Shown here piece by piece: positions 59,280 through 61,504 of a stretch of DNA of 64,000 nt. Origin of the DNA: Rhodohalobacter sp. 614A (lineage in GTDB: Bacteria > Bacteroidota > Rhodothermia > Balneolales > Balneolaceae); the NCBI RefSeq assembly GCF_021462415.1, contig NZ_JAKEDS010000001.1, forward strand, positions 1,584,273-1,648,272. Direction: 5' to 3'. The position numbers and the translations under genes were made by a program. Within the stretch, counting starts at the first letter, position 1; each line of letters starts with the position of its first letter. Below the pieces are notes generated by a model. That model had not been told where the DNA came from. It saw only the letters and a list, made by a program, of their open reading frames with translations, and searched no databases.

Positions 59280-60197
59280 TTAAGGTACGGGTTCTCCCTG
59301 CGATGCTTCAAGCAAATGAAACCAGTCCTGCCGATCCAGATCTACATCCCAAGCATTAACCGCCTTGATAATACGTTCTTTTTTACCCGTTCCCAACACC
59401 GGTTGAGGATTGCAGGGAAGTCTCAGGCACCAGGCAAGCGCAAGTTGGTCGAGTTCGATTTCATATTTCTGACAAAGTTTTTTTCCAACTTTCTTGATGC
59501 GTTTGACTCTTTTTCCATCCCCTTTAAAAAGCTTTCCGCCTGCAAATGGGGACCAAAGCATCGGCGAAATGCCATATTCCTGGCATTGATCGAAAGTGCC
59601 GTCATAAATAGGATCAAGGTGTAAAACGGAGCATTCCACCTGGTTTGTGACCAGTGGAATATCCAGTTTACTTTGAAACATCTGAAACTGTGACGGAGTG
59701 AAATTGGATACGCCCACATGGCGGATTTTTTGTTCCTCCCTGAGCTTCATGAAAATGTCGGCCATTTCTGATGCATCCATGAGCGGATCGGGACGGTGAA
59801 TAAGAACCAGATCCAGATATTCTGTATGCAACTCTTTCAGGGAATTTTCTACCGATTTGCGGATGTGTTCAGCAGTTGTATTGTAATGCTGCATTTTATG
59901 CTCCGGTCGACTTTTCACCGGCAGGCAAATTCCACATTTTGAGACCAGTTCCATTTGGGAGCGTAGTTCTGGTTTTTCTCTCAAAGCCTTTCCAAAAATT
60001 CCTTCATTTTGATAATTGCCGTAAATATCAGCGTGATCAAAGGTAGTAATGCCATGTTCAAGGCAGGTTTCAATGAAATCGATGAGATCAGGTGTAGACA
60101 TATTCCACTCGTTAAGCCGCCAGAAACCAGCTGCGAGTTTCGAAAATTCGGGGCCGTCTTTGTGGAGTTTTAAGCGTGTTTTTGCAGTTTGAGTCAT
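59280..60197 (-). CDS. Aldo/keto reductase (YdhF-like)
   Basis: A 305-residue NADPH-dependent reductase. The tetrad is D and Y of TFDHADIYGNYQNEGIFGK, K of MELVSKCGI and H of DLVLIHRPDPLMD. Residues VGVSNFTPSQFQM and the C-terminal PVLGTGKKERI cofactor loop are typical of the YdhF branch. The start overlaps the last codons of the interrupted choice-of-anchor-B gene by 4 bp (ATGA), so it is in the same transcript. The substrate is unknown. Confidence 0.92.
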   Translation of the reverse strand: MTQTAKTRLKLHKDGPEFSKLAAGFWRLNEWNMSTPDLIDFIETCLEHGITTFDHADIYGNYQNEGIFGKALREKPELRSQMELVSKCGICLPVKSRPEHKMQHYNTTAEHIRKSVENSLKELHTEYLDLVLIHRPDPLMDASEMADIFMKLREEQKIRHVGVSNFTPSQFQMFQSKLDIPLVTNQVECSVLHLDPIYDGTFDQCQEYGISPMLWSPFAGGKLFKGDGKRVKRIKKVGKKLCQKYEIELDQLALAWCLRLPCNPQPVLGTGKKERIIKAVNAWDVDLDRQDWFHLLEASQGEPVP

Positions 60198-61504
60198 GGT
60201 TCAAATCTTAGAATAAAAAGCCCCTGTTCAATATCACTCACAATGATTTTATCTCCTGAAAGCCAGGGGTAAACAGACCAAAGGCCGCCGAAGGTTAATA
60301 AATCTTCCTCTGGAGTTTCCGGGGTTGTATCAAAATATCCAATTTCAAAAATATTTTGAGGATTTGGATTGCTAACATCCAGAATCCGAAGTCCGGACAT
60401 GTAATTCGCCTGGTACATCATATTATCCTCAACATACAGATTGTGGTCTCTCGATTGAGTGTCGTGCTAGTAAAATCCAATCATCTCAGGATTGTCCAGA
60501 TCCTGTATATCCCAAACATAAGTACGGGTATTATGATGAAATCGTGCTTCATCCAGTTCATCATTCATAAAGAAAGTTTGCTGGTCTTCAGACAACCATC
60601 CCTGGTGCATGTAGGCCTGGCCCGGATAATTTCCAATTGAAATGGTGGATACGTTTTCTTTATTGCTTACATCCGAAATCAAGAAAGCACTTTCGCCTGA
60701 ACTGAAACAGATTTCCTTTCCATTGTGCTCTTCATCCGGTCCGGTGTATATCACACATTGAGTGTCGTGAATGTATCCAGATTCAGTTATTCCGCCAGCA
60801 TTTTCATCAAAATAACACCCGCCATATTCGGGTTGAAGGGGTTCGGAGATATCAATCATATGGAGTCCGCCACGTTCTGCACACAGCGAACCGGTTGTGC
60901 TTCCAACGGCATAAAGAAAATTGCTATCGCTGTTAATGTTGATGTTATGAGCATTTCCAAAATCGGTATAGCGCACATAATTGGAGAATGTGATACCCGT
61001 TTTGCTCACAATTCGGAGCTGAGTCAGATCGAAGACCTGCAGTCCATAATTATTTTGTTCGCTGACAATGTAAAGCGTGTTATTATGGACTTTCATATCA
61101 CGCCAGGGAGAGTTCTCCTTGAAGCCTTCGCCATCATCATGAGCTTGAAAATCGGGCGATTTTGCAGGCGTTTCATTTGCATCCGGGATAAATCCAACGA
61201 CAACGGGTTCGGAAGGAACGGTCACATCTACGATATCCACGCCACTATTCATGCCAATAATCGCGTACTCGCTGCCGGTTATCGGGTCAATCCAACCCCA
61301 AATATCGTTTAAATAATCACCTGAAAGTTCGGAGACCGGAACGTGCGCATAAAGCCCGATATTATTACAGGGATAAGATTCAGCCTTTCCATTTTCACAA
61401 GGGGTGTAATCAAGATCTGCCGGGCCTGTGCTTGGGTCACAAGCTGTCAAAAGTATTGTAAATAAAAGGCTTATTAGGAGGAAATAACGAAACATTTTGT
61501 TCAT
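60194..61504 (-). pseudogene. Choice-of-anchor-B/LVIVD-repeat lipoprotein interrupted by an in-frame TAG
   Basis: Two open parts lie in one frame: 61504-60467 (345 residues) and 60421-60194 (75 residues after a Met, 90 codons counted from the stop). The TAG at 60469-60467 is the only stop between them; reading through gives GFY-stop-HDTQSRDHNLYVEDN, which restores the expected DHN-to-NYxxGLRILD family ending. The N-part has a lipobox (ILLTAC, Cys22) and repeats such as YAIIGMNSGVDIVDVTVPS and LHMIDISEPLQPEYGG. Loss by one point change, sequencing error or readthrough are all possible. The intact protein would be a surface or secreted propeller-like protein of about 436 residues. Confidence 0.85.

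Follow-up and report, generated by a model that had tools for sequence, protein, structure and literature searches.

The question raised by this locus in the salt-loving bacterium Rhodohalobacter sp. 614A is whether an in-frame amber codon within a conserved lipoprotein gene reflects a loss of the gene, an error in the assembled sequence or a stop that ribosomes can pass. An earlier note had listed a very recent loss, a sequencing error and a readthrough site as the options; our analysis supports this choice of candidates and ranks the recent loss as most likely. In the window (the whole stretch of DNA that was analysed, 64,000 nucleotides), the minus strand from 61504 to 60194 forms a single 437-codon frame encoding a choice-of-anchor-B (TIGR04312) lipoprotein, with one internal stop, a TAG at 60469-60467 (codon 346), and a terminal TGA at 60194-60196. 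The features of the locus are the following.

60470..61504, minus strand: part 1 of the choice-of-anchor-B gene, the 345 codons ahead of the stop; TIGR04312 positions 1-278, E 8.4e-91
61439..61450, minus strand: lipobox-like LTAC, residues 19-22, read by eye; Cys conserved in the genus
60467..60469, minus strand: in-frame TAG, codon 346 of 437; in relatives, Gln in L003 and L004, Glu in L005 and L006
60419..60421, minus strand: nearest ATG downstream of the stop, a weak candidate for an internal start; GAGG 5 nt upstream, absent from four congeners
60194..60466, minus strand: part 2, 90 codons and the terminal TGA, corresponding to the usual C-terminus of the family; TIGR04312 positions 282-363, E 4.4e-30
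59280..60197, minus strand: aldo/keto reductase gene; PF00248, E 1.2e-52; shares 4 bp with the end of part 2

The two parts lie in one frame with the TAG alone between them, as had been noticed from the sequence, and translation reproduces the residues quoted as directly following the stop, HDTQSRDHNLYVEDN and then NYMSGLRILD. Reading all 437 codons revealed neither a frameshift nor a second stop, and further disabling changes, looked for both in the frame and in a 39-row family alignment, were not present, in keeping with the view that the rest of the gene is intact. The N-terminal signal peptide of part 1 ends in LTAC, which we take to be a lipobox-like motif and whose Cys22 aligns with the Cys of relatives. 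At the other end, the reductase gene starts at 60197 and overlaps the stop of part 2 by the 4 bp previously described. On the TIGR04312 profile (364 positions, curated cut-off of 100 bits), the two parts match back to back, at 1-278 and 282-363, and far beyond chance; part 1 scores 305 bits, part 2 105.2 bits and the whole frame read through 415.3 bits, all above the cut-off. The profile and the family alignment agree in placing part 2 as the normal C-terminus, which confirms that the sequence after the stop is a conserved family ending. A genome-wide scan with the same profile returned one full-length match (1-363, with '1 TAG') and two further matches below the cut-off, close together at C1:1559170-1560576; with these as the only extras, a redundant second copy in the genome is ruled out. 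Searching the literature for choice-of-anchor B by name brought up no paper, and the portions of PMC8078820 and PMC2447325 available to us give only fold modelling and repeat length for the LVIVD repeats.

The family has a patchy distribution: 11 of the 58 genomes searched (the strain's own included) contain a match, and so do 5 of the 27 other genomes of the genus, one of these matches being a long variant. The short lipoprotein gene is unbroken in four congener species (L003-L006), and among named organisms it is Rhodohalobacter sulfatireducens WB101 that has the closest relative of the window gene. The earlier note had asked for a comparison with sister strains; made at the species level with the four congeners, this comparison gives a sense codon at the TAG site throughout, Gln in two species and Glu in two, and TAG at codon 346 in none. 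Relative to intact orthologues, a disabling change is therefore present, and it is the TAG itself. Across the wider family the codon 346 column varies (some of its alignment rows are misaligned), so the identity of the residue is not critical. For this codon-column comparison, the automatic choice of open reading frames was wrong or misaligned for at least L048, L078, L080, L087, L091, L117 and L122, and three entries duplicate others, L048 being the locus L004, L049 the locus L005 and L077 the locus L011; because the choice excludes stops by construction, it gives no count of interrupted members elsewhere in the family. In one genome (G020), an apparent TAG in the reductase was discarded, as it sits just upstream of the start codon and not in the gene.

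The gene order and the 4-bp overlap between lipoprotein and reductase are kept in all four congeners carrying the short lipoprotein, and the aldo/keto reductase is present in 26 of the 28 genomes of the genus. The lipoprotein gene is thus an accessory gene ahead of a near-universal one, and this optional gene is nevertheless tied to the reductase by exactly 4 bp in each of the four. The long variant, of about 800 residues, occurs at three loci (L012, L013 and L014, in genomes G003, G033 and G032), of which L012 is the fifth match within the genus. It has the same C-terminal domain, and a repeat-rich N-terminal half, which by eye we take to be FG-GAP-like, replaces the N-terminus of the short lipoprotein. 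The long variants were rejected as the origin of part 2, which in the alignment, by eye, is nearest to the short gene of the same genus.

To what extent would the stop damage the product? AlphaFold2 predicts the read-through protein as a confident closed propeller (pLDDT 90.0, pTM 0.87), and in VIA-align 2 comparisons residues 46-436 of the model match WD40 propellers, including those of EED (5ttw; Z 30.1, rmsd 2.7, 310 aligned) and WDR5 (8q1n; Z 29.4, rmsd 2.5, 290 aligned). The propellers of EED and WDR5 have seven blades. The stop falls at the end of predicted strand 340-346, and beyond it lie 7 of the 29 beta strands listed for the model, ring closure among them, together with 12 of the 46 invariant residues, including the DHN motif at 353-355. 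Judging from the model, a chain ending at residue 345 could not close the ring, and we infer that it would be non-functional. By Foldseek and sequence profile, the nearest solved structure is the haloalkylphosphorus hydrolase (phosphotriesterase) of Sphingobium sp. TCM1 (5hrm), with a Foldseek E of 7e-13 and an hmmsearch E of 5.4e-5, the latter, though, arising through weak LVIVD-like repeats alone; 5hrm is absent from the best 50 VIA-align 2 rows. Given the invariant His, Asp and Glu residues, a metal-dependent hydrolase is a lead for the function of the family, and only a lead.

Substitution patterns were used to estimate the age of the stop. When the window gene is compared with its congeners, synonymous sites are near saturation, while dN stays at 0.24-0.33 upstream of the stop and 0.17-0.24 downstream. 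By a three-point estimate, tip dN over the whole gene is 0.119 for the window and 0.109 for the sister, a difference of 0.010 (bootstrap 95% -0.031 to 0.049); after the stop the values are 0.111 and 0.078, an excess of 0.033 (bootstrap -0.051 to 0.104), a result that would suit either a very young change or a gene that is no pseudogene. The reductase shows the opposite (0.060 for the window, 0.084 for the sister), a comparison that slightly enlarges what may be a small excess. Because the tip dN is near that of the sister, any neutral period would have been short relative to the divergence of the sister species. Past the stop, the profile score falls to an extent usual for the family, and it falls further in 19 of the 38 other rows of the 39-row alignment. 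Arg352, six codons past the TAG, is unique among the 39 rows, the 38 others having I, V, S or T, and hints at relaxation, as a single residue.

We conclude that the TAG is probably a real and recent nonsense substitution in an accessory gene for a surface lipoprotein. We place it as recent since both halves have kept their constraint, and as tolerated because the gene is absent from most species of the genus. Translation would stop at codon 346 and yield a 345-residue product without the last part of the beta-propeller; with its ring unclosed, this truncated propeller would probably be misfolded and degraded, and the allele would be effectively null. Expression of the downstream reductase may fall somewhat, through polarity or lost translational coupling. 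A sequencing error, or a stop that ribosomes read through, would predict the absence of erosion just as well. An assembly or base-calling error, with a sense codon and an intact gene in the living strain, would likewise account for a gene that is otherwise intact, for constraint on both sides of the TAG and for the conserved operon layout; we consider it unlikely, given an assembly of good quality (4.69 Mb in 10 contigs, 99.3% complete, 0.04% contamination) that contains no other same-frame break in the 440 kb scanned by codon usage. Lone substitution errors are probably rarer than natural nonsense alleles in such assemblies. The scan itself sought same-frame stops; its stricter first form missed the lipoprotein TAG, and the looser form, which was used, listed 20 across the 440 kb. 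On visual inspection of the peptide that follows each one, we judged the lipoprotein TAG to mark the sole interrupted gene; after the remaining 19, the peptide resembles the start of a next gene. A general decay of the genome was rejected on the basis of this one same-frame break in the 440 kb sampled, and by the same token there is no pattern of decay to back the reading of a recent loss.

Could the amber codon instead be decoded? A change of genetic code is ruled out: TAG terminates 34 of 178 long open reading frames in the 440 kb sampled, prfA (RF1) is intact, and no CUA-anticodon tRNA was found. Rfam places 43 tRNAs in the genome, and ARAGORN assigns an anticodon at 42, none of them CUA; the forty-third, a weak match of 35.4 bits, holds no CTA. 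The PylS profile gave two matches, of 24.9 and 20.6 bits, both under its cut-off of 178.15, and some match to it also occurs in 13 of 14 control genomes. Neither a tRNA reading UAG or PylS nor conservation of the stop in orthologues, the two marks of a recoded amber codon, is found here. That some ribosomes nevertheless pass the amber codon and make the full-length lipoprotein, the stop lowering its dosage, would fit the constraint seen downstream and the argument, in the part of Belinky et al. 2021 (PMC7918605) available to us, that bacteria widely carry in-frame stops with dN/dS below 1; that same text describes most such stops as short-lived and without functional recoding. We regard such readthrough as very unlikely, since suppressor tRNA and PylS over the cut-off are both lacking, RF1 is intact, TAG is common as a terminator, the RNA fold around the stop is ordinary (z 1.13 over 91 nt beginning at the stop, -0.91 over the 201 nt surrounding it), none of the four short-gene congeners has the stop, and constraint accrued before a recent mutation fits the data equally well. 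A fission of the gene, in which translation restarts at 60421 and the two chains assemble or act separately, could draw on the ATG ATG 15 codons past the stop and on the GAGG 5 nt upstream, which is missing in the congeners. Such a fission appears extremely improbable: the cut lies in predicted strand 340-346, part 2 is without a signal peptide and would remain cytoplasmic, and a Shine-Dalgarno signal is not enriched at the starts of this genome (16 of 148 long open reading frames, against 10% in shuffles). There are 12 promoter-like matches where 6.8 would be expected (sd 2.6), including one ahead of the reductase at 60273-60246; this signal is too weak to rely on. We also hold it highly improbable that the amber is functional in the broader sense that occasional readthrough or restart at 60421 keeps a low dose, full-length or two-chain, while the truncated form dominates; if true, the stop would be a dosage switch revertible by one substitution.

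The weak tRNA match (L138:9751-9828, minus strand, corresponding to G000:C2:99750-99827) adjoins a tRNA-Gly(GCC) and is 84% identical to it, with an altered anticodon arm that ARAGORN cannot read. Its sequence suggests a pseudo-tRNA derived from tRNA-Gly, or else a tRNA that serves a different role. The related genomes G003 and G014 have several neighbouring full or partial tRNA matches.

With a recent nonsense substitution as the preferred reading, the interrupted lipoprotein gene is an ordinary case. For annotation, the two fragments belong together as one interrupted gene and not as two proteins, and there is little import beyond this. If the stop is real, it offers a clean and very young loss of a patchy lipoprotein, and a case for measuring any effect on the overlapping reductase gene; if it is an error, a base has been flagged for checking.

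Comparison with known systems places the locus in the same way. Like TIGR04312 (LVIVD repeats) proteins, the frame has a full-length profile match over both parts, a probable signal peptide and a putative lipobox-like anchor, and it differs from them in the TAG that interrupts it between profile positions 278 and 282. The TAG cases in the part of Belinky et al. 2021 (PMC7918605) available to us share with ours a sense codon in relatives and purifying selection in the gene, but theirs occur in two or more genomes and ours in one. Similarly to a unitary bacterial pseudogene made by a single nonsense codon, the gene has one in-frame stop, intact orthologues and no second copy; unlike such a pseudogene, it has so far undergone no further decay, and its status hangs on one base in one assembly.
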